From: Pseudomonas mosselii
Lineage (GTDB): Bacteria; Pseudomonadota; Gammaproteobacteria; Pseudomonadales; Pseudomonadaceae
Assembly (NCBI RefSeq): GCF_019823065.1
Contig: NZ_CP081966.1
Coordinates: forward strand, 1,953,501 to 2,017,500
Reading direction: 5' to 3'
Length of the DNA: 64,000 nt
Below are positions 6,820-41,949 of this stretch, in pieces. The stretch's first letter is position 1. Every line of letters starts with the position of its first letter. The notes below the pieces were generated by a model, which did not search any database, was not told the origin of the DNA, and worked only from the letters and a program-made list of their open reading frames with translations. The position numbers were made by a program, and so were the translations under genes.

Positions 6820-7290
6820 ATGATCCAGTCGCAAATCAGCCAGAATGCCCGCCTTGCCCTGAGCGAAGCCATCCTCCTGGCCAAGGCCCGCAAGGACCTG
6901 TCGTTCGCCCAGATCACCGACGGCACCGGCCTGTCCGAAGCCTTCGTCACCGCCGCGCTGCTGGGCCAGCACCCGCTGCCGGCCAGCGCCGCCCAGGTGG
7001 TGGGCGACAAGCTGGGCCTGGACGCCGACGGCATCGCCCTGCTGCAGACCGTGCCACTGCGCGGCAGCATCCCCGGCGGCGTGCCGACCGACCCGACCAT
7101 CTACCGCTTCTACGAGATGCTGCAGGTGTACGGCACCACCCTCAAGGCACTGGTCCACGAGAAGTTTGGCGACGGCATCATCAGCGCCATCAACTTCAAG
7201 CTGGACGTGAAGAAGGTCGACGATCCGGAAGGAGGTTCGCGCGCCGTGATCACCCTGGATGGCAAGTACCTGCCGACCAAGCCGTTCTGA
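6820..7290 (+). CDS. cynS: Cyanate hydratase (cyanase)
   Basis: Converts cyanate plus bicarbonate to carbamate and CO2; carbamate then yields ammonia and CO2, so cyanate is detoxified and used as nitrogen. The protein has 156 residues, identical to the E. coli enzyme, and the catalytic triad falls at the same numbers: R96 and E99 in YRFYEM, and S122 in IISAIN. A strong AAGGAG ribosome site precedes the ATG. An intrinsic terminator directly after the gene ends the operon. Confidence 0.98.
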
Positions 7291-7306
7291 TTCGCTCATA
7301 GGCAAT

Positions 7307-7338
7307 AGCTCGGGCGCCGAACGACGCCCGGGCTTTTT
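7307..7338 (+). terminator. Rho-independent terminator of cynTS
   Basis: A 10-bp G+C-rich stem (AGCTCGGGCG at 7307-7316 pairing with CGCCCGGGCT at 7325-7334, one G-T pair) with an 8-base loop is followed by a run of T. It separates cynTS from the amidohydrolase gene downstream. Confidence 0.88.
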
Positions 7339-7374
7339 CCACGCGCGCTAATGAGCCCCTACAGGAGCGACGGC

Positions 7375-8598
7375 ATGGACCTGATCTTCAGAAATGTCCG
7401 CATCGATGATGCAAAACCCTTGATGGATGTGGCCGTGCGCAACGGCAAGATCACTGAAATCGCCCAAACGATCACCGCAACGGCAACCCAGGAAATCCAA
7501 GGCAACGGCAATGTCCTGATCCCAGGCTTCGTCGAAGGCCACCTGCACCTGGAAAAAGCCAACGTCATGCAGCGCAAGGCCAACCGCTCCGGCACCTTGA
7601 CGGAAGCGATCGCCGTCACCGCCGAGCTCAAGCCCACGCTCACCCGCGAAGACATCCGCGAGCGCTCGACCCAGGTGTTGCGCGCGCTGGTGCAGGCCGG
7701 CACCACCCATGTCCGTGCCCACGCCGAGTTCGACCCCGCCCAGGGTTTCACGGGCCTTGAAGTGGTGCTGGAACTACGGGAAACATTCCGCGATGTCATC
7801 GATATCCAGGTGGTCGCCTTTCCCCAGGAAGGCATCCTCAAGTTGCCCGGCATGAAAGCGATGATGGTCGAGGCCATGGAGAGGGGCGCCGATGTGGTCG
7901 GCGGCATTCCCTACAACGACGCCTCGCCCCTGGAGCACATCGATTTCGTCTTCGACCTGGCCCAGCGCTATGGCAAGGACATCGACCTGCACCAGGACTT
8001 CGCCGACGACGCCGAGCACATGACCATCGAATACGTGGCCCGCCGGACCCTCGCGGCAGGCTACCAAGGGCGCGTCAGCGTCGGCCACCTGACCAGCCTG
8101 GCGGCCGTCGAACCAGCGCGCCAGTCGCGTATCATCGCGCTGCTGCGCGAAGCCGACATCAGCGTGATGTGCCTGCCCGCCACCGACCTGCACCTGGGCG
8201 CCCGTGGCGACAGCCACAATGTGCGGCGCACCCTGACCCCGGTGCGGGCGTTGCGCGATGGCGGAGTGAACGTGTGCCTGGCCACCAACAACATCCGCAA
8301 TGCCTTCACTCCCTACGGCACCGGCGACCTGCTGCATATCGCGCAGCTGGCCATCCCCGCCTGTCACCTGGGCGGGGCGGACGACCAGGCCACGGTGCTG
8401 CCGATGCTCACCAGCAACCCGGCCAAGGCCCTGGGGTTGCAGAGCCATGGCTTGGCGGTGGGCAACGACGCGGACCTGGTGCTGATGGACACCCACCGTA
8501 TCAGCGACGTGATCCTCGACCTGCCCGCGCGGCTGATGGTGCTCAAGCGCGGCAGGGTGGTGGCGACAGCGGAGCAGCGGCGCTCGGTGGTGTTCTGA
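7375..8598 (+). CDS. Amidohydrolase-superfamily protein, cytosine-deaminase-like, with altered active site
   Basis: Metal-dependent hydrolase of 407 residues related to cytosine deaminase CodA. The start at 7375 has an AGGAG site; the ATG at 7351 does not. Metal motif HxH is H56-L-H58, and further metal histidines appear as H206 (DLHQDF) and H238 (SVGHLTS). The CodA catalytic Glu (HCDE) aligns to F209, and the metal/catalytic Asp (GHDD) aligns to N305 in LATNNIRN. It may therefore act on a different substrate or by a changed mechanism. It follows cynTS but a terminator lies between, so a link with cyanate is only suggestive. It could be a deaminase or cyclic-amide hydrolase. Confidence 0.72.
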   Translation: MDLIFRNVRIDDAKPLMDVAVRNGKITEIAQTITATATQEIQGNGNVLIPGFVEGHLHLEKANVMQRKANRSGTLTEAIAVTAELKPTLTREDIRERSTQVLRALVQAGTTHVRAHAEFDPAQGFTGLEVVLELRETFRDVIDIQVVAFPQEGILKLPGMKAMMVEAMERGADVVGGIPYNDASPLEHIDFVFDLAQRYGKDIDLHQDFADDAEHMTIEYVARRTLAAGYQGRVSVGHLTSLAAVEPARQSRIIALLREADISVMCLPATDLHLGARGDSHNVRRTLTPVRALRDGGVNVCLATNNIRNAFTPYGTGDLLHIAQLAIPACHLGGADDQATVLPMLTSNPAKALGLQSHGLAVGNDADLVLMDTHRISDVILDLPARLMVLKRGRVVATAEQRRSVVF

Positions 8599-8607
8599 AG
8601 GCCGGGT

Positions 8608-9861
8608 TCAGACGGCCAGCAGCAACAGTGCCGCCAGCAGTGCCGGGAGCATTACCAGCACGCCCAGACGCAAGAAACTCAATGCGCCGACATGCTCGCC
8701 CTCGCGGCGGATCGCCACCAGCCACAGCAGCGTGGCCAGGGAGCCGGTGATCGACAGGTTCGGTCCCAGGTCGACGCCGATAAGCAAGGCGGCGGTGGTC
8801 TGCCGGGGCAGTTCGACGAGGTGGCCGATGGAACCGGCGATCAGGCCGGTGGGCAGATTGTTCATCAGGTTGCTGGCCACGGCCGCAGTCACCCCCGCCG
8901 TCCAGCTTGCCGTGCCTGCCGACTGTTGCGCCAGGGCGGCCAACGATTGGGCAAGACGGTCGATCACGCCGGTGTGGGCCACGGCTTCCACCAGCACGAA
9001 CAGTCCTGCGACCAAGGGCAGGACCCCCCAGGCCACGTGGCGCAGCAACGGCGCCGGGTTGCGCCGCTGACGCAGGTGGATCAACCCGGTGGTGGCCATG
9101 CCTGCGCAAAATGTCGGCAGCCCTAGCGGCATGTCCAGTGCCGATACCGTCAACAGCAGGGTGCCGGTGAACATCAGGCCCAGCGCGCAAAGCCGGGCGC
9201 CGGCCGACAAGGGGCGCATCTCGATGGCCACGGCCAGCGGCTGACGGATGCGCTCGCGCTGGGTCAGGCGCAGCACCAGGTAGGTCATGGCGATGGCGCC
9301 CAGCGAGGGCAGGGTGAACTGGCGCAGCCATTCCAGCAGCGGCGGCATCTGGCTGCCGAAGACTACCAGGTTGGCCGGGTTGGAGATGGGCAGCACGAAG
9401 CTGGCGGCATTGGCGATGAAGGCGCAGATGAACAAGTAGGGCAGCGGCTCGGCCTTGGCCGCCTTGCACGCCGCATACACGGCCGGTGTCAGCACCACAG
9501 CGGTGGCGTCATTGGACAGGAACACGGTGACCAGTGTACCGACCAGGAATACCAGGTCGAACAGGCGTTGGCCCGAGCCCCTGGCATGCTGCACCGCGTA
9601 CCTGGCCAGCCAGTCGAACAAGCCTTCCTGGCGAGCCAGCTCGGCCAGCACCATCATGCCGGTCAGGAACAGGTAGACATCGCCTCCTTCGGCGATTGCC
9701 GCCAAGGCCAGGCGCCATGGGATCAGGCCGCAAGCCGTCAGTCCTAAGGCGGCGCCCATCGCCCAGACATATTCAGGCATGCGTCCCGGCCGAAGGATGA
9801 CCAGGGCGGTGGCCGCGGCCGCAACCGACCAGATGATCAGGGATGACTCAGCGACAGGCAT
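8608..9861 (-). CDS. ArsB/NhaD-type anion permease
   Basis: Inner-membrane transporter of the ion transporter superfamily, 417 residues with about 11-12 hydrophobic segments. The motif FLSNDATAVVLTPAVYA and the second-half copy VASNLMNNLPTGLIAG are the paired re-entrant signatures of ArsB/SLC13-like carriers. The start MPVAES lies 8 bases after the stop of the upstream MFS gene, so the two are co-transcribed. The substrate cannot be read from sequence; there is no arsR, arsC or arsH nearby, so arsenite export is not supported. It is convergent with the amidohydrolase gene, 9 bases apart. Confidence 0.8.
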   Translation of the reverse strand: MPVAESSLIIWSVAAAATALVILRPGRMPEYVWAMGAALGLTACGLIPWRLALAAIAEGGDVYLFLTGMMVLAELARQEGLFDWLARYAVQHARGSGQRLFDLVFLVGTLVTVFLSNDATAVVLTPAVYAACKAAKAEPLPYLFICAFIANAASFVLPISNPANLVVFGSQMPPLLEWLRQFTLPSLGAIAMTYLVLRLTQRERIRQPLAVAIEMRPLSAGARLCALGLMFTGTLLLTVSALDMPLGLPTFCAGMATTGLIHLRQRRNPAPLLRHVAWGVLPLVAGLFVLVEAVAHTGVIDRLAQSLAALAQQSAGTASWTAGVTAAVASNLMNNLPTGLIAGSIGHLVELPRQTTAALLIGVDLGPNLSITGSLATLLWLVAIRREGEHVGALSFLRLGVLVMLPALLAALLLLAV

Positions 9862-9869
9862 GCGAGGAC

Positions 9870-11123
9870 TCAGTTTCCGGAAGGGGAGTGAAGGGGAGGG
9901 GCTTGCTCGGCGTTGGCATCGCTGGCCGGTCGGCGGGTCTCCGGCATGGCCAGCCAAAGCAGAAGCAACGCTGCAGTCGCGATGCCCGCCAATGTCAGGA
10001 ATGCCGCGTCGTAGCCTGCGGACTGTACCACCAGCCCCGCGACACCGGGACTTAGCGCCGCGCCCAGGCCGAAGGCCGTGGACAATGCGCCAAGGCTGAC
10101 ATTGAAGCGCCCGCTGCCTTGGGTGAGGTCCTTGACCACTACCGGGAACAATGCGCCGAACAGTCCGGCGCCTATGCCATCGAGCAATTGCACGGCCACC
10201 AGCCAGAACGGATCGTCCGACATCACGTACAGCACGCCACGCAGCGGCAGGATCAGAAAGCCGGCGAGCAACAGCGGCTTGCGTCCCCAGCGGTCGGCCC
10301 TGGCGCCGGCCAGCAGCGCCATGGGCACCATCACCAGCTGCGCCGCGACGATGCACGCCGAGGTCAGCGGCGTGGCCAACTGCAGGTTGGCCTGAGCCAG
10401 TTTCTGGCCCACCAGCGGAAGCATTGCCGCGTTGGCCAGATGGAACAACGCGCAGCACACGGCGAACAGCAGCAAGGGGCGATTGTGCAACAGTACGGCA
10501 AGGCCGGCGGGGTGGGCGTGCTGGCCCGGCGGCCGCGGGTCAAGGCCGCGCGCGAGGTCATGGTCGATGGCTGTCGCCGGCACTCGGCTGATGGCGATCA
10601 GGCTGGCCACAGTCATCGCCGCCATCAGGTAGAACACCGCCACCGGTCCGAACAGGTAGGCCAGCCCGCCGGCGAGCACCGCCGAGCAGGCATTGCCGGC
10701 ATGGTTGAAGGTTTCGTTGCGGCCCATGCGCCGGGTGAATGCCCGCGGCCCGGTCAGGCCCAGTGAAATGGCAGCGATGGCCGGCGCGAACACGGAACCG
10801 GCGAGCGCGCTGATGGCTTGGGTCAACGTCACCAGCGCGACGCTGGTGACCCACGGCAGCACCAGGCAACTGCCGGTCACCAGCAGCGCGGCGATGGCCA
10901 TCACGGCGCGCTTGGCCGTGGTCCTGTCGATCAGCGCGCCAGCTGGCGTCTGGGTCAGCAATGCCGTGACGCTGGCCAAGGTCATGACCAGGCCGATACT
11001 GCCGGGCTCCCAATGGTGCACCGCCAGCAGGTAGATCGCCAGGTAGGGCCCAAGCCCATCACGGACATCGGCCAGGAAAAAATTCAACCCATCGAGCGAA
11101 CGTTCATGAGCAGGCGAGGCCAA
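9870..11123 (-). CDS. MFS transporter
   Basis: Major facilitator of 417 residues with about 12 membrane segments. The N-terminal half begins FFLADVRDGLGPYLAIYL, and the loop motifs GALIDRTTAKRAVM and GARADRWGRKPLLLAG are the conserved MFS loop 2-3 and 8-9 sequences. It resembles drug- or metabolite-efflux carriers, but the substrate is unknown. First gene of a two-gene operon with the ArsB/NhaD-type permease. Confidence 0.86.
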   Translation of the reverse strand: MASPAHERSLDGLNFFLADVRDGLGPYLAIYLLAVHHWEPGSIGLVMTLASVTALLTQTPAGALIDRTTAKRAVMAIAALLVTGSCLVLPWVTSVALVTLTQAISALAGSVFAPAIAAISLGLTGPRAFTRRMGRNETFNHAGNACSAVLAGGLAYLFGPVAVFYLMAAMTVASLIAISRVPATAIDHDLARGLDPRPPGQHAHPAGLAVLLHNRPLLLFAVCCALFHLANAAMLPLVGQKLAQANLQLATPLTSACIVAAQLVMVPMALLAGARADRWGRKPLLLAGFLILPLRGVLYVMSDDPFWLVAVQLLDGIGAGLFGALFPVVVKDLTQGSGRFNVSLGALSTAFGLGAALSPGVAGLVVQSAGYDAAFLTLAGIATAALLLLWLAMPETRRPASDANAEQAPPLHSPSGN

Positions 11124-27785: not shown

Positions 27786-29094
27786 CGCCACCCCCGCAAA
27801 ACTCTCCCTGACTTCCCTGACCGTCTTCGGCCTGGCCTACATGTGCCCGAGCCTGGCCATGGTGATCTTCGGCGTGATCTCCGAGCGCAGCGACGGCATC
27901 GCCCCCAGCGCCTTCCTGCTGGCCACCGGCGCCATGCTGCTGTCGGCCCTGAGCTACGCCAAGCTGTCTCGCCTGTTCCCGGTGTCCGGCTCGGCCTACT
28001 ACTATGCCAAACGCCTGCTGGGCCCTGGCTGCGGCTTCGTGGTCGGCTGGGCGGTGCTGCTGGCCTACCTGTTCATGCCCATGGTCGCCTGGCTGCTGCA
28101 GTCGGTGTTTCTCAACGCCCAGTTCCCGCAGGTGCCCACCTGGGGCTGGCTTTTGATCAACATCGGCCTGACCACGGCGGTGACCGTCAGCGGCATGACC
28201 CTGACCGACCGCCTGAACAAAGTGCTCACGGTCTTCAGCGTGGCCCTGGTGCTGCTGTTCATTGGCTACTGCCTGCGCTATGTGGCCGGCCAGCCCCAGG
28301 TCGGCTTCACCCACCCCGTATGGAACGAACACAGCACCTTGACCGGCCTCACCGCCGCCGCCGCCATCGCCGCTTATTCGTTCCTCGGGTTCGACGCCGT
28401 GACCACCCTGGCCGAGGAGGCCGAGCAGCCCAAGCGCGACATCCCCCGGGCGGTGCTGCTGGTGATCAGCGTGGGCGGGCTGCTGTTCACGGCGGTGGCT
28501 TACCTGATGCAACTGAGCCACCCCGGTGGCCAGTTCGCCGACCCAGAGACTGCGACCTATGCGCTGTCGATCGAGGTGGGCGGGCAGTTCTTCGCCGACT
28601 TCGTCAACCTCGGCGGCATCGTCGCCGGCTTCGCCTCGTGCCTGGCGGTGCAGGTCAGCGCCAGCCGCTTGCTGTACTTCATGGGCCGCGAAGGCGTGCT
28701 GCCACCGCGTTGTTTCGCCAAGCTGCAGGGCACGGCGCGCACGCCGGTGTTCAACCTGCTGCTGATCGCCGGGCTGGGGTTGATCGGGATAGGCGCGGAT
28801 GTGAGCTCGGCCGCTTCGCTGATCAACTTCGGCGCGTTCCTGGCGTTTGCGGCGGTGAATGTCTGCGTGATTGCGTACTACCTGCGCGAGCGGCGCAAGC
28901 AGCGGTTGAGCGGGATGGGGTTCGTGGTTTTTCCGCTGCTGGCGATTGGGGTGAACCTGTATCTGCTGTCGCTGTTGAGCACGGTGGTGATACTGGCCGG
29001 GGTGGCTTGGCTGGTGTGTGGCGGGTTGTACCTGATGTGGCTGATGGCGGCGTTCAGCAAGCCCACGCCGGGGTTGATGGAGGTTGAGTCTTGA
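27778..29094 (+). CDS. APC-superfamily amino-acid/polyamine permease
   Basis: Inner-membrane carrier of 438 residues with about 12 membrane segments. The start at 27778 has a CAGGAGG site. Helix 1 (LTVFGLAYMCPSLAMVIFGVISERSDG) and SAYYYAKRLLGPGCGFVVGWAVL are APC signatures. AAIAAYSFLGFDAVTTLAEEAEQPKRDIPRAV is the conserved loop after helix 6. Relatives import amino acids, putrescine or ethanolamine-like amines. Its context (nitrilase, LuxR pair, polyamine-type binding protein) supports an amine. Confidence 0.87.
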   Translation: MPDATPAKLSLTSLTVFGLAYMCPSLAMVIFGVISERSDGIAPSAFLLATGAMLLSALSYAKLSRLFPVSGSAYYYAKRLLGPGCGFVVGWAVLLAYLFMPMVAWLLQSVFLNAQFPQVPTWGWLLINIGLTTAVTVSGMTLTDRLNKVLTVFSVALVLLFIGYCLRYVAGQPQVGFTHPVWNEHSTLTGLTAAAAIAAYSFLGFDAVTTLAEEAEQPKRDIPRAVLLVISVGGLLFTAVAYLMQLSHPGGQFADPETATYALSIEVGGQFFADFVNLGGIVAGFASCLAVQVSASRLLYFMGREGVLPPRCFAKLQGTARTPVFNLLLIAGLGLIGIGADVSSAASLINFGAFLAFAAVNVCVIAYYLRERRKQRLSGMGFVVFPLLAIGVNLYLLSLLSTVVILAGVAWLVCGGLYLMWLMAAFSKPTPGLMEVES

Positions 29095-29112
29095 GGTGTT
29101 GAGCAAGCCATT

Positions 29113-29199
29113 GCGGCTTTACATGGAATTATTCCAGGCCAATAATTATTGGTATCTCATAATTCAGGATAAACCCATGGCTGACATTTTCCTGCGCCC
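29113..29199 (+). repeat. Leader and start region of the ATPase gene (repeat copy 2)
   Basis: Better-preserved partner of 23927-24013. It contains the perfect 14-base palindrome CCAATAATTATTGG (29138-29151), an A+T-rich block able to act as promoter, the ribosome site AGGA, and the ATG of the ATPase gene at 29177. The equivalent palindrome is broken in copy 1. Confidence 0.8.
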
Positions 29200-30340
29200 G
29201 GAACTGGCAGCCGATATGGCCAGGCAACTGCTCAAGCCCTCGGCACTGGATATCGGCCTGCGTTCCGGGTTGTTCCTGTCCGGCCTGCGCCGGACGGGCA
29301 AGACAACCTTTCTCAAGAACGATCTGATCCCGGCCCTGGAGGCACAGGGCGCACTGGTGATCTACGTCGACCTGTGGAGCGACACCCAGACAAGCCCGGT
29401 GAAACTGGTGCTGGCTGCCGTGCGCCAAGCCCTGCTCGAACTGCAGACACCGACCTCGTCGTTCATGCAGCGTCTCAAGCGCGTGCGTGGCGCCGAGGTG
29501 GAGGTGGCCGGTTTCAAGTTCGGTTTCAACCTCGATACCCTGGGTGAAGCAGGCGGCGTGACACTCGCCGAAGCGCTGACCGAAGCGGTGGACCAGGCCA
29601 AGGCGACTGTCGTGCTGATCGTCGACGAAGTGCAGCATGCCATCACCACAGAGGACGGGCAGCAGATGATGCTGGCCCTTAAGGCCGCGCGTGACGCCAT
29701 CAACCCAAGACCCGCGACGCCTGGGCATTTCCTGTTCATCGGCACCGGCTCGCACCGGGCCATGGTCAACGAGCTGACCGCCCGGCGTAACCAGGCGTTT
29801 GCCGGCGCCACCAACGTGGCCTATCCGGTGCTGGACGAGGGCTATGTCGCGTTCTGGCTCCAGCGGCTCGCCGCGGACGGCCTCGATAACCTGCCTTCGC
29901 TGGAAGTGGCGACCGAGGCGTTCAAGACACTGGGCAGCCGGCCTGAAGAGTTCATCCGTGCCCTGCGTCAGTTGATTCACTCGCCCAGCCTCGGTTCCGG
30001 GGCGGATGTGGTGCTGCCGGTGATTGCGGCCACGCTACGCTCGGCGGCGGCCGACCTGGAACTGATGAAGGTCGAGGAACTGGGCGTGCTGGCCCAGGCC
30101 ATTTTCGCCCGGATCGCCTCCGTGGATGGCGAGACGCGGGGCGTGTTTTCCAGCGAGGCGGCGGGCGAGTATTCGACGTTCGTGGGGCGTGAAGTGCGGG
30201 TGGAGGAGATCCAGCCGGTGGCCAATGAGTTGCTGGCGGCGAACCTGATCATTCGCCGGGGGCATGGCCTGTATGGCGTGACCGATCCGTTCGTGCAGGA
30301 GATCTGGCGGGAGCGCCAGGCGATGCTGGGTAAGCGCTGA
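29177..30340 (+). CDS. P-loop ATPase (AAA, ORC/STAND-like), unknown role
   Basis: 387 residues. The start is taken at 29177 because AGGATAAACCC precedes it and the same start is shared by the repeat copy 1; the longer frame from 29084 runs back through the leader. Walker A is GLRRTGKTTFL near residue 38, Walker B is VVLIVDEVQHA near residue 150, and a sensor-like HFLFIGTGSH follows. The C-terminal part looks like a winged helix (VANELLAANLIIRRGHGLYGVTDPFVQEIW). It resembles single-protein archaeal-type ATPases. The 134-residue gene 26 bases downstream is probably co-transcribed. Confidence 0.8.
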   Translation: MADIFLRPELAADMARQLLKPSALDIGLRSGLFLSGLRRTGKTTFLKNDLIPALEAQGALVIYVDLWSDTQTSPVKLVLAAVRQALLELQTPTSSFMQRLKRVRGAEVEVAGFKFGFNLDTLGEAGGVTLAEALTEAVDQAKATVVLIVDEVQHAITTEDGQQMMLALKAARDAINPRPATPGHFLFIGTGSHRAMVNELTARRNQAFAGATNVAYPVLDEGYVAFWLQRLAADGLDNLPSLEVATEAFKTLGSRPEEFIRALRQLIHSPSLGSGADVVLPVIAATLRSAAADLELMKVEELGVLAQAIFARIASVDGETRGVFSSEAAGEYSTFVGREVRVEEIQPVANELLAANLIIRRGHGLYGVTDPFVQEIWRERQAMLGKR

Positions 30341-30366
30341 TAGACGTTCAGAGCAGGTGAACACCG

Positions 30367-30771
30367 ATGAAGGTCGACTTTGAATTGCTCACATTGCCGG
30401 ACGACATGTCGGGCTACAACGCGGCGGCCTTTACCGAGGGCCGCCTGAGCATTGAAGTGCAGGGGCGGGTGTTCTTGCAGGTGGAGTACTGCTTGCTGCT
30501 CGAATTGGCAAACGTGATGACGCAATGGTTGAAAGCCGTGGCCACCCGTGGGGCTCAGGATTTTTACTACGCCTCGATGGACGAAGAAGAGGAACCGATC
30601 ATCGCGCTGCGCTACTGCCGCACCAGATCGGTCTTCTCACTATGGTCCTGTTGGGCGGTGTGCGAGCATGGTCCCGAAGTGACGCTGGAGCAGGCCAGCG
30701 AATGTTTCGAGCGGTATGTTCATGACTTGAAGCGGGCGATCGACAATCGCCTGCAGGCCGTTTCGCCCTGA
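30367..30771 (+). CDS. Hypothetical protein, 134 residues
   Basis: Acidic soluble protein with a beta-rich first half (RLSIEVQGRVFLQVEYCLLL), a run of four glutamates (DEEEEP), and a C-terminal helix (LEQASECFERYVHDLKRAI). It follows the ATPase gene by 26 bases, so it is likely its operon partner, and ends before a REP element. Unrecognised; immunity-protein-like in size and composition, but no toxin is adjacent. Confidence 0.6.
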   Translation: MKVDFELLTLPDDMSGYNAAAFTEGRLSIEVQGRVFLQVEYCLLLELANVMTQWLKAVATRGAQDFYYASMDEEEEPIIALRYCRTRSVFSLWSCWAVCEHGPEVTLEQASECFERYVHDLKRAIDNRLQAVSP

Positions 30772-31743: not shown

Positions 31744-32013
31744 TCAGTGCTTCATCCCCAACTCCGCATCATCCATCAGCGCCTTGGCCAGCGCGCTCAG
31801 GTAATACGACGCCCAGATCAACTGAGGCTTCTCCTCCATGATCCCGGTGATGGTCAGGTCGCACACGCAGCCCATCAACTCCGAAGCCTGTTCCCGTGCG
31901 TGCTGGCAAGGGATGCCGGGCTCGATGCAAAACAGCGGGTCGGTATGCCCTTCACCCTGGTAGAACTTGGTCTTGCCCACCGTGGTGTGGGACGTGGTGT
32001 CGTCTGTGCTCAT
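31744..32013 (-). CDS. DUF3077-type small protein
   Basis: 89 residues, matching from memory the Pseudomonas-specific DUF3077 family. It has the pattern FYQGEGHTDPLFCIEPGIPCQHAREQAS, then LMGCVCDLT and SYYLSALAKALMDDAELGM. No transmembrane segment. Members often occur as pairs of small genes near each other, as here with 32212-32457. Function unknown. A REP pair separates them. Confidence 0.75.
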   Translation of the reverse strand: MSTDDTTSHTTVGKTKFYQGEGHTDPLFCIEPGIPCQHAREQASELMGCVCDLTITGIMEEKPQLIWASYYLSALAKALMDDAELGMKH

Positions 32014-32211: not shown

Positions 32212-32457
32212 CTAGTGCAAAGTCCGGGGCTCCACCTGCGGCATCTGCACCTGAATCAACGCCGATTCGAGCAGCACCCGCAGCGCCTCCATTTCATGCA
32301 TCGCGGCCATGACCAGAATCGACACGGGCGACTTGGGATGCAGCAGAACAGCCTGATGCGCCACGGTCTGCGCGCACAGGGCGTACTCGGTGGCCTGGAT
32401 GATGGTGTCTTCGAGGGTGTGGTGGTTGTGGGGTGGATCGGGAACTATCTTCAGCAT
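32212..32457 (-). CDS. Small Pseudomonas protein, DUF6124/DUF3077-like
   Basis: 81 residues, helical: TLEDTIIQATEYALCAQTVAHQAVLLH, VSILVMAAMHEMEALRVLLESAL. The N-terminus MLKIVPDPP resembles the start of the DUF3077/DUF6124 proteins of Pseudomonas. Paired with the gene at 31744-32013 on the same strand. It is the last backbone-like gene before the A+T-rich island. Role unknown. Confidence 0.65.
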   Translation of the reverse strand: MLKIVPDPPHNHHTLEDTIIQATEYALCAQTVAHQAVLLHPKSPVSILVMAAMHEMEALRVLLESALIQVQMPQVEPRTLH

Positions 32458-32951
32458 GGTTTTGTGCCCTTTGATGGGGCCGCTACCGGACTGCTGTCAA
32501 ACAGGTAGGTGGCAGCTATGCATAGGTTGACAGACCGGCGGACACAAAAACCGGCGCACGCAAGCGTGCCCCATGCACAGCCGCCATAGAGGGCATGCAG
32601 TGCAGGTGTCGCGTCGCGGCCTGTCAAAGCCGATCGCTGATATGCAGCGACTTGCCGAGACTAGAACGCTGGCAGAGCGATCGCAACGTAAAAAAAGCGC
32701 TGAGAGTATATTTAGGAAATGGACTACAAGGAAGAGGGGGAATCTGATGCCCGCTGGGGCTTTTCTGAGAGTGGCTGTTTTTAGGGGGGGAACAATAAAC
32801 ATAAACAATATTCATTGATTGGCTCGTGCTTGCCAAGTACTACGAAAATTCATGGGTGAGCGACATTTTATTTGGTTCGGCATTTTTTGTGCCGCTCCCA
32901 AACAGCGTAGAGAGCGGCTGGCTAGTATTGTTTTTCCAGATCAGTTCGGAA
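32458..32951. other. Intergenic transition into the A+T-rich island
   Basis: No convincing gene. Base composition falls from backbone-like to A+T rich around 32,680. A tight hairpin GCACGC-AA-GCGTGC lies at 32554-32567, and a dyad GCCGCTC/GAGCGGC spans 32891-32918. Two opposing short frames (32497-32808 minus, 32573-32818 plus) lack ribosome sites and family features. The first ~200 bases are probably the promoter region of the small minus-strand gene. No attachment site was found. Confidence 0.55.
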
Positions 32952-33665
32952 TTAGGTCGGCTTGATGTACTTGAATGTTTCCGGGTAGGCGTTTGTGATA
33001 CCAATGAAGTCTGTCAAAAATAGGAGTTCTAATGCGATGATACAAAAGGGGGTTATGTACATCGAGTAAAGTATTGCGCTGGATTTTGCTTTGTAGTAAG
33101 CCCTGTCTAGCCCTTTGATTTCGTAGTCGCGAGACATATGAAGTCTTGAGATTAAGTAGTCATTATCTAGGTGTGTTTCGGATGTTGAGACTATAATTGA
33201 GTATTTTTCTCCGTAGGTTTTTATTGACTGGTCGTTTGTTGAACCTTTTACGATTTCCATTTCTAGGTCTCTGGCAAGAGACTTTAGAGTGTCAGCGCAG
33301 CGGCTGAGTTTTTCAGCGCGAACACCATAATCCGCTTTGGCAATGGTTACTGAGTAAACCAAGACGCAAACTGCGAAGAAAAGCTGCATCCCATTAGCTA
33401 CGAGTTGTGGGAATATTTGAGTTATTCCTGAGCTTTGAAGTAGTGGGATGAGAATTAGCCCTAGAGAAAGTATTGTAGTGGCGGCAAAAGATACGTCATT
33501 TTTCATTCCTAAACGGATTGCAGCTCGATAACGACAGTTTGACGTAACGCGCATGTTAAGTAGTAATTTATCAGTCGGGTCCTTTGGGGCACGTAATCCT
33601 TTTTCTGAAATATGGTCAATTTTGGACTGGGGGCCTATGGGGAGATTTGCTGGGTTCGGTTTCAC
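32952..33665 (-). CDS. SLATT-type membrane protein, third gene of the Mokosh-like operon
   Basis: 237 residues with a GTG start and AAGGA site. The pattern RYRAAIRLGMKNDVSFAATTILSLGLILI (first membrane helix, ~58-77), a second helix ~93-109 (LFFAVCVLVYSVTIAKADYG), a long charged cytoplasmic region with RAEKLSRCADTLKSLARDLE, and a third helix ~196-218 matches the SLATT fold. That fold is described as a pore-forming or membrane effector in nucleotide-signalling defence operons. It lies 24 bases after the PLD gene in the same A+T-rich block, so it is very probably co-expressed. Whether it is the effector of the system is inference. Confidence 0.75.
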   Translation of the reverse strand: MKPNPANLPIGPQSKIDHISEKGLRAPKDPTDKLLLNMRVTSNCRYRAAIRLGMKNDVSFAATTILSLGLILIPLLQSSGITQIFPQLVANGMQLFFAVCVLVYSVTIAKADYGVRAEKLSRCADTLKSLARDLEMEIVKGSTNDQSIKTYGEKYSIIVSTSETHLDNDYLISRLHMSRDYEIKGLDRAYYKAKSSAILYSMYITPFCIIALELLFLTDFIGITNAYPETFKYIKPT

Positions 33666-33689
33666 AATATACTTCCTTGTGTGGCTTGC

Positions 33690-35456
33690 TTAAATGGCGG
33701 CTTGCTGGCAGATAATGCGACCCTGAAGGTCGCTAATGATTGTTTCTGCAGCGCCGCGTAAGTTAATGTGTATTCCGAGCTCTTTTAAGTTGTCACTGCC
33801 TTTTGGGTCTGCCGAGAGCCAGTTCAAACTTGTTATTAATATGTCATTGTTATCCCACGCAAGGATTTTGGCGTGTAATTTCGGGGCTTCAACCGTTTCT
33901 AGTTGTATTCCAGCCAAAGACGCAGTGTTTTTCACTGAGAGTACATCTTTTTTTGTTACTGGGTCTGTTTCTTGGTTGAATAGTATGTTGGCCATTATGT
34001 TCTTTTCCTCGACTGCTTTTTTTAGTGCGGGCAGTACTGATGAGTAGAGTGTGCCGCCGAGTCTATGGCTTGTGACAAAAATTCGCTCTTTTGCTTCGTC
34101 ACGGGCACGATAGATGTAAGAGTTATGTTGCTCTCCTATGATTAGACTGGCTGTGGCATTGGTGTTGCTAGGAGCGGTTTGTGAAATAAGCTTCTGGCCT
34201 ATTAGTGCAATTTCTGTAGCAAGATCAGTCCAAATGCCATCGTGAATACAACAGAGGCGTGATGCGTAACTGATAACGTCTTTTACGATTCGAGGGTCTC
34301 TTAATAGCACTGACGCTTCATAGGTTGAAAAATTTGACGTGAACCAATTGCAGGATCCAATAATTGCAATAAATTCTCCATTGCATGCGGAGTCTGAAAT
34401 TATAAATTTAGAGTGAGAGCCAGTTGAATGTGGGTGGATGATAATGCTTGAGGTGAACTCAGCTATCTCTTCGCTGTTGAAGATCGCAGTTATGGCTCTG
34501 CGGGAGGAGGAAGACTCTTCGTTTATTTCGTTCTGTCCCCAGAAAATGTGGACCATCACCCCTCTCTTTGCTGCTTCTATGAGGTTGGGCGTAAGTTTGG
34601 AGAATTTGCTCTCTTCAATAAAAGTTGAGTGGATTATGATTTTTGTTCTGGCGTTGTCAATTGCATCCAGAAGGGCTTTCAAGTGATTAGTCCCTCCAAG
34701 AATGATATCTTCTAAATTGAATTTTATATCCCTGTAGTTTTCCTTCCCCGCAAGCGGTTCGAAGCGAGTGCCGGAAACTTTAACTTCCGTGTTTTCTTCG
34801 CTGATATTAGTTAGGCGGCTCTGACTAATTTCGATGATTTTTTCCTTGAGGTCAGACAGGTCTCGTTTAGGAGGCAGTCCATGGATTACACCGTCTTTAA
34901 GCGTTGCGACTACATATCTACGTATTACGCCCTTTGGTTCTGCGCTAACAAAAGTTTCATCAGGGTCTAGAAGGATGCTTAACATCCCTGTTACATCAAT
35001 TGATGTTTCTTCTGAGTCGGGAGTTAATATTACAAAATTCTCATTTTTTGCACGGTCTCTGATTGTCTGCTCAGTGAATACAGCCCATTCTCTATTCCTA
35101 TAAACGTGCCCGCAAACGAGGTCTACTATAAAGTTGGTTGGTCTGTTTTTTCTTTCTAGGATTGTAGGTAGCTCTATCCGGTCTAAAGCGATTTTTCCGA
35201 ATATTGTGGTCTTAAATAATGTGCCACTGGTTGCTTGCTCGAGTTCTACCCAGCCAGCTCGCATAAGTCGTATTATAGACTCCATAACCACCCTCCTAGG
35301 GAGATTAGCATGCGATGCAAGCGCTGAAATAGACCAGCTTTGTTTCGATAGGGCGTAAAGTACCAAGTGTTCTATTGTGCTCCAGGGATGCCCTTTGTCT
35401 ACAATAAATTTTGCTTTGCTTTTGATGACAGGAATTGCGAAGTTCAGTATGTTCAA
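33690..35456 (-). CDS. Phospholipase D-family nuclease, MkoB-like
   Basis: 588 residues. The TTG start at 35456 overlaps the helicase stop (TTGA) and has a perfect AGAGGAGG ribosome site, so coupling is clear; the next methionine would remove the N-terminal domain. Residues ~25-95 form a winged helix (WSISALASHANLPRRVVMES). Two PLD half-sites follow: H348-S-K350 with D355 and GSCNW (367-371), then H528-A-K530 with TSLNW (542-546). PLD enzymes form a single active site from two HKD motifs and cut nucleic acid or phospholipid. Pairing with an SF1 helicase is the Mokosh type I layout as I recall it. Confidence 0.84.
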   Translation of the reverse strand: MNILNFAIPVIKSKAKFIVDKGHPWSTIEHLVLYALSKQSWSISALASHANLPRRVVMESIIRLMRAGWVELEQATSGTLFKTTIFGKIALDRIELPTILERKNRPTNFIVDLVCGHVYRNREWAVFTEQTIRDRAKNENFVILTPDSEETSIDVTGMLSILLDPDETFVSAEPKGVIRRYVVATLKDGVIHGLPPKRDLSDLKEKIIEISQSRLTNISEENTEVKVSGTRFEPLAGKENYRDIKFNLEDIILGGTNHLKALLDAIDNARTKIIIHSTFIEESKFSKLTPNLIEAAKRGVMVHIFWGQNEINEESSSSRRAITAIFNSEEIAEFTSSIIIHPHSTGSHSKFIISDSACNGEFIAIIGSCNWFTSNFSTYEASVLLRDPRIVKDVISYASRLCCIHDGIWTDLATEIALIGQKLISQTAPSNTNATASLIIGEQHNSYIYRARDEAKERIFVTSHRLGGTLYSSVLPALKKAVEEKNIMANILFNQETDPVTKKDVLSVKNTASLAGIQLETVEAPKLHAKILAWDNNDILITSLNWLSADPKGSDNLKELGIHINLRGAAETIISDLQGRIICQQAAI

Positions 35457-38400
35457 AATTTGTCCTCCTCTAAGACCTTCGCTGGAACTATGTTTTTGTG
35501 AACGTCGCGATTGCTTTCAATTTTTCTTATGAGTTTTGACAGGAAGTCAATTTGACGCCTGTCGGGCTCACCTTTGGGGCGTGCATGGATTGACTTAAGG
35601 AAGTCTAAGCTGCCTACTAATACCAAGCGCCACTTGGCACGGCTCATTAATACGTTCATCCTTCGAGAGTCTGCTAAGAAGCCCAAGGCATTATATATGG
35701 TGGAATGGCTATTGTTTCTGACTAGCGAGATGATTACGCAGTCTGCTTCGTTGCCTTGGAATGAATCCACAGTGCTGCAGTATGAACCATCTCCAGCAGC
35801 ACTAGAGAAGTTATGGATGTTTGCCAAGTCGTTATTTTTTTTTGCCTCAATACGATTTGCAATTTCTCGAGTTTGTCGGCTGTAAGGGGAAAGGATAGCT
35901 ATTGTAGGCTTGGCGCTATTGTCTGAAGCTGCTGTTAGCTGTTTTATGATTATTTCAATGACATCAATTTCGTCAGGGTTGGTGTAGTGTGGTATCTTGT
36001 CACCATATTTTTTGTCCAAAGTGCTAGATACCCAGGGCATGTCAATCCAAACAATGGGTAGATCCGGAATGTTGCCGTTGGAGTGCCTTATAGGAGATGG
36101 ATTTTGCTCAAAACGTAATGCCGATGATGGGTCAGTTTTCAAATCTTCTTTATAAAAAGCGTGAGATACTAATTCTGCGATTTCAGGGTGCATTCTATGC
36201 TGATGGTGCAGAGATTTCGCGATAGGGAAGCCCTTGTTCCTGCGCTTTTGTCGATCGAACTCATTTTCGATTGTTGATTCGAATAGTAAGAAATTTTTGG
36301 CAGCTTCATCGCACAAGTCTGAAAAATCCGACGCGGCTTCTTCAGAACCATTATCTAATTTTGCATCACTAAAGATTTCGTCAACAATAGGGTCCCTAAA
36401 ATGTCTGCCTATCATCAGGTTTCCTGATTCAAGTGCATTTTTTGTGTCTGCCGGATTGCTCAAGATTTTTAGAATGCGATCAGCACCAAAAGGAGGAAGC
36501 TGTTTGTGATCTCCAATCATAAGCCTTCTTGGAGATAGTAAAAGTGGCGATGTTAATTCTCCGCCTGTCGCTTTACCTGCTTCTTCAATAATTGACCAGT
36601 CAAACTGATTTTTTTCTTCAATTAGACCTTCAAGTGCAGCGGAATTTGTCGTGGCAAATACCAGGTTTGCAGAGCGAAGTACTAAGTTCTCGATGGAGTT
36701 TTTGGATATTTCTAGTGTCGTGCTTATTGGCGTGTTTGTATCGTTGTTGTAAGCAGCTGTCAGTTGGGTTAGTTTTTCAGCTAGCTCTTTTGGAGCTGTG
36801 GAAATCAAGTCGCTGTCGGCTATTCGATTTACTATTGATCTAGTTTCATAGCCTATGTCGAAGCGTTTCTCTGCGTCTTTGGCAGATTTCTGCACACACC
36901 GGATTATAATTGCATCATTACTGTCTGAAACTATATCTTTGATCTCCTGCATTAGGTGGTCGACAGCGTGATTGCTCTGTGCGGATAAAAGTATTCTTGA
37001 GGAGCTGTCGTTGCTAATTATTTGGCTGACAAGTTCTCGGACTAGTCTGGTTTTTCCAACTCCTGGTGGTCCTTGTACGAGAAAGAGTGGCAGTGTTTCG
37101 ATAATGGACTTAAATGCATCTTGTTTAGACGTGTCTAGGCTTAAATATGCAGCGTCTTCTACTATTTGCTCATGGCTGCTCATAATCCGTCCTCGGGGAT
37201 CACAGATCATTCTTGCAAGTTCATTGTGCTCCCCTAAAGCTGTAAAGCTTTTCAGACGTCGTCTGAGTTGTAAGTCTCTGCCGGCAGAGTCTGCTGATAT
37301 GAGATAAACAGTATTTGATGTGTTGGGAGGGTTATCTCCCGTAAAGGTATATATTTTTCTTCCGTCCTTATCATTTGCATGAGAGTGAAATTGCCATTCG
37401 GTATCCATGTCGGAGCGCTCACCAATATTAGGTGAGTCAGTTAGAATCCAATTACCAGATCCGCCTTCAATGCGATCTTCTATTAAGGATTTTTCGAGGC
37501 GTCTCGCAAGGTTGTCACGTATCTTTAATGATCGACATAGCTCCTCTCTTTCTGTATCGGTTCTAGCTGTTATTTTGATGCTAATGGTTCCGTCAAGTTG
37601 AGGCGTGTAAGCTTGCTTGGGTTCGCGGATAATAGATACCGGATATGCTTCGCTCGCGGCAAAAAGGTAGTCTAATATTTGGCTTAATATTAAAGATTTT
37701 CGCGTTTTTAGCTCTTCGCTGTAAGGGTCTTCAGGTAAGGAAGCTTTGTTTGTAAGAGAAGTCCAAGAAGTAGTCCTTCCCTTTAGGCGAGCTGCTCGCT
37801 TTGCTTCTGTTAAAGGAAGTGTATTTAAGGAGCTACCACTCAGAGGTATTTGATAAATTATAGGGTTAGGTACTTTGTTGGATGGTTCTATCGAGCTGCA
37901 ATAGGCTAAGTCCCAAGAGGCAGGTGCACCTCTTTTTTGAAATGCATCGATAGTATAGGTGAGGAGTTCTCCTCTTAAGCAATATTTCAGGCCTGTTGAT
38001 GAGAAATTGGACTTCATAGCTTGAAATATAGGGGTTCGCAGGTCCTTCTTAATAAAATCAAGTTGCTCTTCTTCATCATCGATTTCAATTTGATTTTTTG
38101 ATGCCTGGCGTATTGTCGTAGCGGCTTTGCTCTCGGGGCCAAGAGATAAGAAAAAACTATAAAGATGTTCTTTGTTTTGGAGTTCGCTATCGAGTTCAAG
38201 TAGGATTTTGTCTATTTTTGTAATTACGTATTTTCCATCTATCCTATCTGTTTTTACATATCCTTGAAGCTCTCTGATTAGCTTTATTTCGTCGGCGCTG
38301 ATTCCATCTGAAACTTCGTGATTTGAAATTCCTAGATTTATTAACTTGGTGTACGGAACTCCCAATAGTGTGGCTGCGATTTCACCAAGCTGCTGCCAAT

Positions 38401-39037
38401 CTTTGATGAATGAGTGAGTATTATCGTAACTGTGTGGTGGCGTTTTGTTAGAGTGTTTTTCTGGCTCTACTAGCCTCATGGACCATTCGAATCCTGTCAG
38501 CTGAAAATCAGGTTCGTCTGTGTTGGATGTAAGTATGGACCAGTTATTGAGGTTTCGATGAAGCAGTCCTTGTAAGTGAAGGATTTCTAGTCCTTTGGAA
38601 ATCCGATGTAAATTTGCCCAGCTGAGTCGTCTGTTTCTAGTTGATCTTGGGTTCTTGGTAGGGGTGTAGTCATCATTGCGGATTAATATTTCCAGAGGCT
38701 GGCGCTGTTCTGTCTTGATTACAAGGTGATAACCAGTTTCGTCTATTAGGGCAGTTTTGAGTTCTGCTATATAGTTCGAGATTCCTGGGAATCCTGCAAG
38801 TCGATAAAGTTGGCGAGTCTCGTTTTTCCAAACCTCGTATATGTCTTTGTCGTCTATGTTTGGATTTCTAGGCCAGGTTTTAATTAATACGTTACTTCCA
38901 TGCTCATCGACAGCATTGCGCTGAGACGGCGAACCAGTGCTTTTATTGAATGTGCATAAGTATTTTTTTTCGAGGGTGTAGCCGGATAACGCACTGCTTT
39001 TGGCGGTCTTTTTTAATGTTAAGTTGCCTTGTGACAT
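35453..39037 (-). CDS. Pseudokinase-SF1 (UPF1-like) helicase, MkoA-like
   Basis: 1194 residues; ATG at 39037 with an AGGA site. Residues ~45-230 have a protein-kinase outline: K53 (VLIK), E73, the loop H160-R161-N162 where the catalytic aspartate should be, and T181-G-F-E in place of DFG, so it looks catalytically dead. The C-terminal half is an SF1B helicase: Walker A GPPGVGKT (656-663), IIEEAGK (816-822), GDHKQLPP (842-849), HRMHPEI (947-953), TVDSFQGNEAD (1089-1099) and MNVLMSRAKWRL (1127-1138). UPF1-type helicases act on RNA or DNA. With the PLD gene it matches Mokosh type I antiphage systems. Base composition differs sharply from the backbone, indicating transfer. Confidence 0.85.
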   Translation of the reverse strand: MSQGNLTLKKTAKSSALSGYTLEKKYLCTFNKSTGSPSQRNAVDEHGSNVLIKTWPRNPNIDDKDIYEVWKNETRQLYRLAGFPGISNYIAELKTALIDETGYHLVIKTEQRQPLEILIRNDDYTPTKNPRSTRNRRLSWANLHRISKGLEILHLQGLLHRNLNNWSILTSNTDEPDFQLTGFEWSMRLVEPEKHSNKTPPHSYDNTHSFIKDWQQLGEIAATLLGVPYTKLINLGISNHEVSDGISADEIKLIRELQGYVKTDRIDGKYVITKIDKILLELDSELQNKEHLYSFFLSLGPESKAATTIRQASKNQIEIDDEEEQLDFIKKDLRTPIFQAMKSNFSSTGLKYCLRGELLTYTIDAFQKRGAPASWDLAYCSSIEPSNKVPNPIIYQIPLSGSSLNTLPLTEAKRAARLKGRTTSWTSLTNKASLPEDPYSEELKTRKSLILSQILDYLFAASEAYPVSIIREPKQAYTPQLDGTISIKITARTDTEREELCRSLKIRDNLARRLEKSLIEDRIEGGSGNWILTDSPNIGERSDMDTEWQFHSHANDKDGRKIYTFTGDNPPNTSNTVYLISADSAGRDLQLRRRLKSFTALGEHNELARMICDPRGRIMSSHEQIVEDAAYLSLDTSKQDAFKSIIETLPLFLVQGPPGVGKTRLVRELVSQIISNDSSSRILLSAQSNHAVDHLMQEIKDIVSDSNDAIIIRCVQKSAKDAEKRFDIGYETRSIVNRIADSDLISTAPKELAEKLTQLTAAYNNDTNTPISTTLEISKNSIENLVLRSANLVFATTNSAALEGLIEEKNQFDWSIIEEAGKATGGELTSPLLLSPRRLMIGDHKQLPPFGADRILKILSNPADTKNALESGNLMIGRHFRDPIVDEIFSDAKLDNGSEEAASDFSDLCDEAAKNFLLFESTIENEFDRQKRRNKGFPIAKSLHHQHRMHPEIAELVSHAFYKEDLKTDPSSALRFEQNPSPIRHSNGNIPDLPIVWIDMPWVSSTLDKKYGDKIPHYTNPDEIDVIEIIIKQLTAASDNSAKPTIAILSPYSRQTREIANRIEAKKNNDLANIHNFSSAAGDGSYCSTVDSFQGNEADCVIISLVRNNSHSTIYNALGFLADSRRMNVLMSRAKWRLVLVGSLDFLKSIHARPKGEPDRRQIDFLSKLIRKIESNRDVHKNIVPAKVLEEDKF

Positions 39038-39301
39038 ATGAAATCCTTTTTCATTGGTGCGGTTTGTGTATTGGGCGCTGTTTTGATACTTGGGATTGTC
39101 TTGGATGTTCAGCTGTGTTGCGGGATTGATATCGGCGGCTGTTTTCTGATGCTACTAATATGACATCACCATGTCCAGATGCAATGGCAGATTCATCCCC
39201 CTGTTCTAGGCCCTGTACGAAATCCCGAGAAGCCCAATTGCCGCCCCTAGAGCGTAGAGATTTTGTAGAGTCCCCCGCCATCGGCGGAAAGAAATTCTGT
39301 G

Positions 39302-40174
39302 ATGGCAAAGCGTTACGAACTCTCGGACGAGGCCTGGGATGTGGTCTGCGATCTCTTCATCGAAACTCATGGCCGAAGGCAGCCGCGTCTGAGTGACCGC
39401 CCGATGCTCGAGGGCGTACTCTGGGTACTGTGCTGCGTGCGAGATATGCCAGAGCGCTTCGGCCCATGGTCAACGGTGTATCAACGGTTTCGGGGTTGGC
39501 GAAATCAAGGAACGTTCGATCAGATGCTCAACGCTTGCACCTGAGATTGAATGAGCAAGGCTTGATCGACCTGCAAACGTGGATGATCGACTCAACCACC
39601 GTACGGGCAACCCGAGTTTCTTCTGGTGCCGGGAAAAAGAGGGCCTGACGAGTCTGCCGATCACGCTATAGGCCGCAGTCGCGGCGGTCTGATAACCAAA
39701 ATCCATATGCTCTGCGACGCCAACGGGATACCGTTGCGCTTCCTCCTCTCTGACGGTCAATCCAGTGACATCAGCTACGCCCAGCCATTGTTGGACAAAG
39801 TCAGCATTCCGTCGAGCCAACGAGGTCGCCCGCGGAAACGCTGCAAATGGTTGCTTGCCAACAAGGGCTACGACACCAAAGCGCTACGCCGCTGCTGCGA
39901 CCAATACCGAATGCAACCCGTCGTCCCACTGCGATCAATGCAGCGCAAGCCCAAGCCTGGCCTACCCAGATAGTTTGATCGGCCCAAGTACCGACAGCGC
40001 AACATCATTGAGCACATGTTTGGCTGGGTGAAAGAGAGCCGTCATATCATGCCTCGCTTCGACAAACTCGCAAAAAGCCATGCAGCCATGGTCTCGCTGG
40101 GTTGCTCCATGTGGTGTTTGCGACATCTCTTTTCGTACAAAGCCTATATGATGGGTGGCTGCAAACCAATGTGA
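39302..40174 (+). pseudogene. IS5-family (IS427-like) transposase, disrupted
   Basis: Remnant of an IS5/IS427-type DDE transposase gene in three reading segments: 39302-39544 (KRYELSDEAWDVVCDLF..), then a shift near 39530 to the frame with LRLNEQGLIDLQTWMIDSTT, then a shift at the A-rich GGGAAAAAGAGGG (about 39637) into KRGPDESADHAIGRSRGGL. A TAG at 39971-39973 interrupts before FDRPKYRQRNIIEHMFGW. The A-run shift may be the programmed frameshift known in this group; the other shift and the stop codon are damage. Terminal inverted repeats could not be defined. It lies upstream of the Mokosh-like operon on the opposite strand. Confidence 0.82.

Positions 40175-40350: not shown

Positions 40351-41949
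<1,599 letters not shown>

Follow-up and report, generated by a model that had tools for sequence, protein, structure and literature searches.

The 64,000-nucleotide stretch of Pseudomonas mosselii DNA analysed here (NZ_CP081966.1, positions 1,953,501 to 2,017,500; henceforth the window) carries the two genes of a Mokosh type I system, mkoA and mkoB, in a tight three-gene order with a gene for a membrane protein of the SLATT_5 family (minus strand, 32952–39037). This operon is a real and recurrent variant of Mokosh type I, and one that apparently has not been described before. With somewhat more belief than doubt, we read it as a Mokosh type I anti-phage operon that has been extended by an accessory membrane component, the SLATT protein, which MkoAB would gate.

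Organization of the operon

The features discussed below are the following (window coordinates):

35453–39037, minus strand: mkoA, 1194 aa, UPF1-like SF1 helicase with a degenerate kinase-like region at its N terminus (PADLOC MkoA, 890.6 bits)
37049–37072, minus strand: Walker A motif GPPGVGKT of the MkoA helicase (residues 656–663)
33690–35456, minus strand: mkoB, 588 aa, TTG start, PLD-family nuclease with two HKD motifs (PADLOC MkoB, 322 bits)
34392–34415, minus strand: first HKD motif of MkoB, HSKFIISD (residues 348–355)
33852–33875, minus strand: second HKD motif of MkoB, HAKILAWD (residues 528–535)
33666–33689, minus strand: gap between mkoB and the SLATT gene, 24 bases, with a Shine-Dalgarno-like AAGGAAG
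32952–33665, minus strand: third gene, SLATT_5 membrane protein, 237 aa, GTG start (Pfam/NCBIfam SLATT_5)
33438–33494, minus strand: SLATT hydrophobic segment 1 (residues 58–76, hydropathy 2.21)
33348–33404, minus strand: SLATT hydrophobic segment 2 (residues 88–106, hydropathy 1.92)
33018–33074, minus strand: SLATT hydrophobic segment 3 (residues 198–216, hydropathy 1.88)

The stop codon of mkoA overlaps the TTG start of mkoB in the sequence TTGA, placing the two side by side in one operon, and the ribosome-binding site AAGGAAG in the mkoB–SLATT gap lies six bases 5' of the SLATT GTG start. All three genes have a GC content of 42–43%, while the two flanks that were measured have 61 and 64%. 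The original prediction, made from the letters of the sequence, had described three A+T-rich minus-strand genes coupled by a TTGA overlap and a 24-base gap, and reading frames, junctions and composition all agree with it. A promoter-like site matching at 11 of 12 positions lies inside mkoB (34660–34633); so good a match makes separate expression conceivable, in that the site could drive SLATT alone. Promoter-like sites were no commoner than in shuffled sequence (10 versus 10.5).

Both core proteins match their PADLOC type I profiles over nearly their full length (MkoA to PDLC03920, residues 21–1178, 890.6 bits; MkoB to PDLC03922, residues 1–578, 322 bits), in keeping with the predicted assignment to Mokosh type I, for which a helicase and a PLD protein are reportedly the pair of genes (Millman and colleagues, 2022). 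MkoB also matches PLDc_2 of Pfam (63.9 bits), and both HKD motifs, recognised already in the prediction, are intact. The helicase part of MkoA is equally clear, with Pfam matches to AAA_12 (143.7 bits) and AAA_11 (112 bits), a Walker A motif that is invariant across 24 aligned MkoA sequences, and SEN1, SMUBP-2 and NAM7/UPF1 as the closest solved chains. The kinase fold that had been proposed beside the SF1 helicase fared less well. That region is a weak match to Pkinase (15.9 bits, below the cut-off of 31.7); Lys K53 and Glu E73 are retained, and the Asp of the HRD motif is absent from 24 of 24 aligned MkoA, where N, Q or H is found instead. Taking these three residues to have their usual meaning in kinases, as we assume, the lack of the Asp throughout the alignment indicates a pseudokinase, probably inactive, as a family-wide trait. 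What is called the STK domain of Mokosh I may therefore be a pseudokinase.

The SLATT_5 protein

The third protein scores far above the cut-offs of the SLATT_5 profiles of Pfam (PF18160, 103.7 bits, cut-off 29.5) and NCBIfam (NF033631, 127.9 bits, cut-off 60), and reaches 82.2 bits with the PADLOC model RTasSLATT. It had been predicted to be a three-helix, SLATT-like protein, to be checked by a profile search that might have pointed to some unrelated membrane family; the profiles identify it as a true SLATT protein, and it has three hydrophobic segments. The prediction had pointed to SLATT domains as membrane effectors in CBASS/SLOG-type systems; as a qualification, this protein belongs to family 5, its best PADLOC models come from reverse-transcriptase (DRT) systems, and its match to a 2TM effector model is marginal (E 0.018).

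An AlphaFold2 model of the protein is nearly all helical, with long helices (mean pLDDT 89.7). Foldseek comparison with models of viral proteins returned several SLATT-named proteins at a probability near 1, none of them at E ≤0.001, and neither sequence nor fold gave a confident match among solved structures. Pore formation or membrane damage by SLATT proteins is predicted in the literature and is putative for the protein described here.

Recurrence in a second Mokosh lineage

MkoB turned up in 4 of 398 genus genomes, counting the window's own, and an alignment-based search of a draw of 288 genus genomes found the same four. Two of the others (G286, locus L052, and G293, locus L053) encode MkoA and MkoB only 30–34% identical to those of the window (30–31% for MkoB), and in both the gene that comes after mkoB, in the same orientation, is a SLATT_5 gene (94.1 and 97.5 bits), at a distance of 53 bp in L052 and 610 bp in L053. 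The remaining genome (G066, L054) encodes MkoAB but gave no match to SLATT. SLATT_5 thus stands in third place in three of the four Mokosh I loci of the genus sample (398 genomes), counting the window. A survey of MkoAB neighbourhoods had been proposed with the original prediction, in which SLATT absent beside all other MkoAB would have told against a third component; L052 and L053 bear the prediction out on this point. Some 150 bases past SLATT, L052 has the start of a frame that resembles a chromosomal gene (glutathione-transferase-like by eye) and is followed by masked sequence; a reverse transcriptase directly after SLATT is excluded in this locus. The frame after SLATT in L053 codes for a repressor-like S24 peptidase, and no frame of that locus exceeds 373 aa except the mko genes.

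The SLATTs of this second lineage are of another stock. They gave no BLASTP match to the window SLATT, and are 61 and 65% identical (L052 and L053) to a SLATT from a Pseudomonas veronii plasmid (L074), next to which lies a UG17 reverse transcriptase of DRT10 type (PADLOC RT_UG17, 515.5 bits, full length); the window SLATT matches this protein at 28% over 86 residues only. The P. veronii pair (6995–8922) is an apparent DRT10 system on an IncP conjugative plasmid, near integrase genes. Phylogenetic trees set the two Mokosh SLATT groups apart, a single clade being rejected (p-AU 1.4e-72, and 7.1e-73 with fewer rows), and the MkoBs of the two groups also separate (single clade rejected at p-AU 2.2e-56 by a quick method), in SLATT and MkoB trees that both carry long-branch and uneven-composition warnings; the 61–65% identity to the DRT10-type SLATT is independent of these trees. 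Given that the trees separate both the SLATT groups and their MkoBs, the pairing of Mokosh I with SLATT most likely arose at least twice. With no fixed branching order among the SLATTs of L052, L053 and DRT10, the trees are compatible with either direction of exchange between DRT10 and Mokosh, and with one event or two for L052 and L053.

Recurrence among the closest relatives

Protein searches in which each relative is a cluster represented by its longest contig yielded 116 SLATT relatives; these we compared with 120 of 290 MkoB relatives and 120 of 205 MkoA relatives, the best ones in each case. Four exact contig sizes (4026, 69529, 13452 and 7213 bases), known to us as sizes rather than as DNA, are shared by the 116 SLATT and the best 120 of 290 MkoB relatives. 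Own rows aside, they belong to the first three entries and the sixth in the SLATT list and to the first four in the MkoB list (best 120 of 290), and two of them, 7213 and 13452 bases, recur among the best 120 of 205 MkoA. When the sizes were slid by 1–50 either way (100 shifts), the mean number of matches was 0.45 and the maximum 2; the known pair MkoB and MkoA has 40 exact sizes in common among the listed matches. Both 69529-base entries name Pseudomonas putida, and this size does not occur among the best 120 of 205 MkoA listed. Should the three entries of 7213 bases stand for a single contig, most of it would be taken up by the three genes (about 6.1 kb).

The five SLATTs and five MkoBs of this first group gave compatible trees, and their identity matrices correlate at r = 0.70, a value equalled or exceeded in 3 of 120 permutations. 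Contig sizes and trees together indicate strongly, if indirectly, that SLATT has been co-inherited with MkoB among the closest relatives of the window. Just outside the five Mokosh-linked SLATTs in the main tree, and in one polytomy with them in a smaller tree, fall a Stutzerimonas balearica protein (P0004, 73% identical to the window SLATT) and one from a 2019-base contig (P0005); the S. balearica contig size has no match among the best 120 of 290 MkoB. The MkoB relatives listed at 57% identity or less have no contig size in common with the SLATT list, a comparison in which the search with the window SLATT cannot reach divergent SLATTs: it misses the DRT10-like SLATTs, those of G286 and G293, and says nothing on SLATT in listed Mokosh relatives below 61%.

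Mokosh I loci without SLATT

A SLATT profile run over 23 fetched Mokosh I loci matched in three (window, L052 and L053); as these three sequences had gone into the profile, the informative part is the 20 misses, which include some damaged or cut loci, with mkoB split by insertion elements (L049, L078) or a contig end near mkoB (L073). On the strength of these 20 loci SLATT is, judging by gene content, an accessory of Mokosh I that the core does not need. The original prediction of an undescribed Mokosh variant with a third component thus stands as far as a recurrent pairing goes, through L052, L053 and the shared contig sizes, with the qualification that most Mokosh I loci fetched show no such component.

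A class-wide MkoB search (E 1e-20) found 1 of 369 genomes, the window's own, and a phylum-wide one (E 1e-15) 4 of 398, the own genome included, the others being G1048, G879 and G1140 (the last a short match). No SLATT was found at the G1048 and G879 loci, the G879 contig ending 853 bp after mkoB, nor in any of the 16 fetched of 50 MkoB plasmid records, and the SLATT-bearing plasmids have no record in common with these 50. Among viral contigs the window MkoB found nothing as a single sequence, and an MkoB alignment found one locus (L061), without SLATT; the L052 MkoB found no phage record.

Other genes occupy the position after mkoB elsewhere. On six alphaproteobacterial plasmids it is held by an HNH protein, an AbiJ-like protein (below cut-off), a protein with NERD (below cut-off) and SEC-C, and three proteins without assignment, each with at most one hydrophobic segment. 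Among the loci with such a gene directly after mkoB are L068 (AbiJ-like, below cut-off), L077 (HNH), L081 and L082 (unassigned) and L083 (SEC-C with weak NERD). The differing genes on these plasmids hint that Mokosh I may have a third slot of varying content. In the Acinetobacter locus L049 a gene further past mkoB has three hydrophobic segments and no SLATT match.

SLATT_5 outside Mokosh

SLATT_5 also occurs without Mokosh. Relatives of MkoA or MkoB (tblastn) were found in 0 of the 37 further SLATT loci that were fetched, a set with some short loci that includes the closest SLATT fetched (L004, 59%). Twenty proteins upstream of SLATT at 19 loci included, by Pfam, Mrr/NACHT-like, RecQ, NOV_C, GHKL ATPase, DUF4928, phage Mu F and others, seven having no match; housekeeping genes (tRNA synthetase, ribonucleotide reductase) also precede SLATT_5, and often it has no recognised partner at its side, as on an E. 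coli IncX4 plasmid. In the genus the window SLATT found 5 of 398 genomes, its own included, the other four not being among the MkoB matches, an undercount given that the same search missed G286 and G293. Neither phage records (SLATT), viral contigs (L052 SLATT) nor E. coli genomes (SLATT DNA, at blastn sensitivity) gave a match. From its neighbours SLATT_5 looks like a mobile module that serves several systems and sometimes stands alone.

In Methylophaga, SLATT_5 lies 32 bp after a gene annotated as a restriction endonuclease on a plasmid (L050, 5947–6711) and, in a metagenome-assembled genome (L021, match at 10001), after a protein with Mrr_cat (30.6 bits) and sub-threshold NACHT. This Mrr/NACHT-like gene with SLATT_5 is another possible SLATT pairing.

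Surroundings of the operon

The best copies of the neighbouring ABC-transporter gene in four genus genomes match the window only from 40357–40423 rightwards, and the 15 kb fetched on their other side contain no match longer than 120 bases to the window from 26000 up to that point; by this comparison the operon is in a variable region. An IS4/5-family transposase remnant in two open pieces (39299–39973, plus strand) lies directly upstream of mkoA. About 290–450 nt downstream of the SLATT stop, a C4 antisense RNA (Rfam RF01695, 78.7 bits) and an a1b1 target element (RF03163, 56.9 bits) occupy 32505–32664 on the minus strand, ahead of an 81-aa frame (32212–32457) and a DUF3077 frame (31744–32013); we take the two elements to be perhaps a relic of P1-type phage immunity. 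An AAA ATPase frame followed by a DUF7878 frame (29084–30771, plus strand) may be a further small system of this variable region. ARAGORN called a tRNA-Ser(cga) inside the DUF7878 frame (30466–30549, plus strand), a call that is probably false because Rfam does not make it.

Possible roles of the SLATT_5 protein

The third-place SLATT_5 of two far-apart Mokosh lineages, drawn from two SLATT stocks, is best explained by function, with SLATT adding a membrane output to a helicase and nuclease. In the working that we propose, MkoA, through its UPF1-like helicase and degenerate kinase-like domain, would recognise invader RNA or other nucleic acid, which the two-HKD nuclease MkoB would cut; SLATT_5 would be held in the inner membrane through two or three helices and would expose a helical domain to the cytoplasm, and the active MkoAB complex or its nucleic-acid products would switch it on to perturb the membrane. 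We infer, in other words, an anti-phage activity, an activating signal, a membrane effect, which the original prediction held could be depolarisation, and abortive infection, with SLATT as the putative effector that MkoAB gates. The loss of DRT10 defence on deletion of its SLATT speaks for this reading; counting against it are the 20 fetched Mokosh I loci with no SLATT match, the 37 SLATT loci free of MkoAB, the S. balearica contig size without a counterpart among the best 120 of 290 MkoB, the P. putida size missing from the best 120 of 205 MkoA, the 610-bp gap of L053, the promoter-like site inside mkoB and the warnings on the trees. A bolder and distinctly tentative extension is that SLATT_5 may be a portable, nucleic-acid-gated membrane effector, gained by Mokosh I on two or more occasions in Pseudomonas, one of them from a stock that DRT10-type systems also draw on. 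MkoA–MkoB would then go beyond destroying phage RNA: its products or activated complex would open SLATT, and a system that degrades nucleic acid would also signal to the membrane.

The main rival takes SLATT for a one-gene module of its own, for defence or addiction, that came to lie behind mkoB and does not depend on MkoAB. We consider this unlikely but to be taken seriously. The 37 fetched loci free of MkoAB, the partnerless copy on the IncX4 plasmid and the copies after housekeeping genes speak for it; a 24-bp spacing with a ribosome-binding site, a pairing that the closest relatives have retained and whose trees agree, and its repetition in the same position of another Mokosh lineage speak against it. 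It is less probable again that SLATT serves MkoAB as a membrane anchor or brake rather than as an effector, bringing the helicase–nuclease to where phage DNA enters the cell or holding it inactive. A long-helix membrane protein in tight linkage would fit this too, if only indirectly, but SLATT_5 is common to unrelated systems (UG17 reverse transcriptase, Mrr-type nuclease), which suggests a portable output module. A leftover of a DRT system that has lost its reverse transcriptase and ncRNA is very improbable and was rejected for the window: the likeness of the L052 and L053 SLATTs to the UG17-adjacent one (61–65%) and the RTasSLATT score of the window SLATT are offset by a clade away from the three RT-partnered SLATTs sampled, a 24-bp gap too small for an ncRNA, relatives that, judged by shared contig sizes, keep SLATT with mkoB, and a sole RVT_1 match in the genome that lies about 1 Mb off.

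For the question of how SLATT proteins are switched on, a related SLATT beside a helicase–nuclease, in a second setting that is free of reverse transcriptase, opens another, independent approach to the activating signal. Mokosh, for its part, gains a possible membrane output.

Comparison with known systems

The Methylophaga Mrr/NACHT-like gene, which can be called Avs-like, resembles the window in having SLATT_5 32 bp after a large nuclease-ATPase gene and differs in that its first protein is unrelated. A CBASS or SLOG context was rejected for the operon, as the three operon proteins and seven neighbouring frames include no SMODS/CD-NTase or SLOG gene by Pfam.

DRT9 is likewise a system in which SLATT (PF18160) is an occasional extra, according to part of PMC12483538, as it is in Mokosh here, but DRT9 is based on a reverse transcriptase. 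DRT10 (UG17 reverse transcriptase, ncRNA and SLATT) shares with the operon the SLATT_5 family, the second-lineage Mokosh SLATTs being those close to the UG17-adjacent protein. In the window, by contrast, SLATT is partnered by MkoAB and falls in a different SLATT_5 clade, and no reverse transcriptase was found beside it, the only RVT_1 match of the genome being at 3.01 Mb and the window at 1.95–2.02 Mb. A passage of PMC12632851 reports that deletion of SLATT abolishes DRT10 defence, and its authors propose there, as yet without proof, that cDNA controls a toxic SLATT pore.

For Mokosh itself, a passage of PMC11672841 describes separate genes for an RNA helicase and a PLD nuclease, together with an STK domain, and one of PMC11291487 the degradation of viral transcripts. 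The literature searched, which excludes most subscription journals, yielded no description of Mokosh I with SLATT, and a review of prokaryotic phyla was the one paper in it to mention both. With type I the operon shares near full-length PADLOC matches of MkoA and MkoB, their adjacency and the gene order of the fetched Mokosh I loci, and it differs from 20 of those 23 loci in carrying a SLATT_5 gene directly after mkoB.
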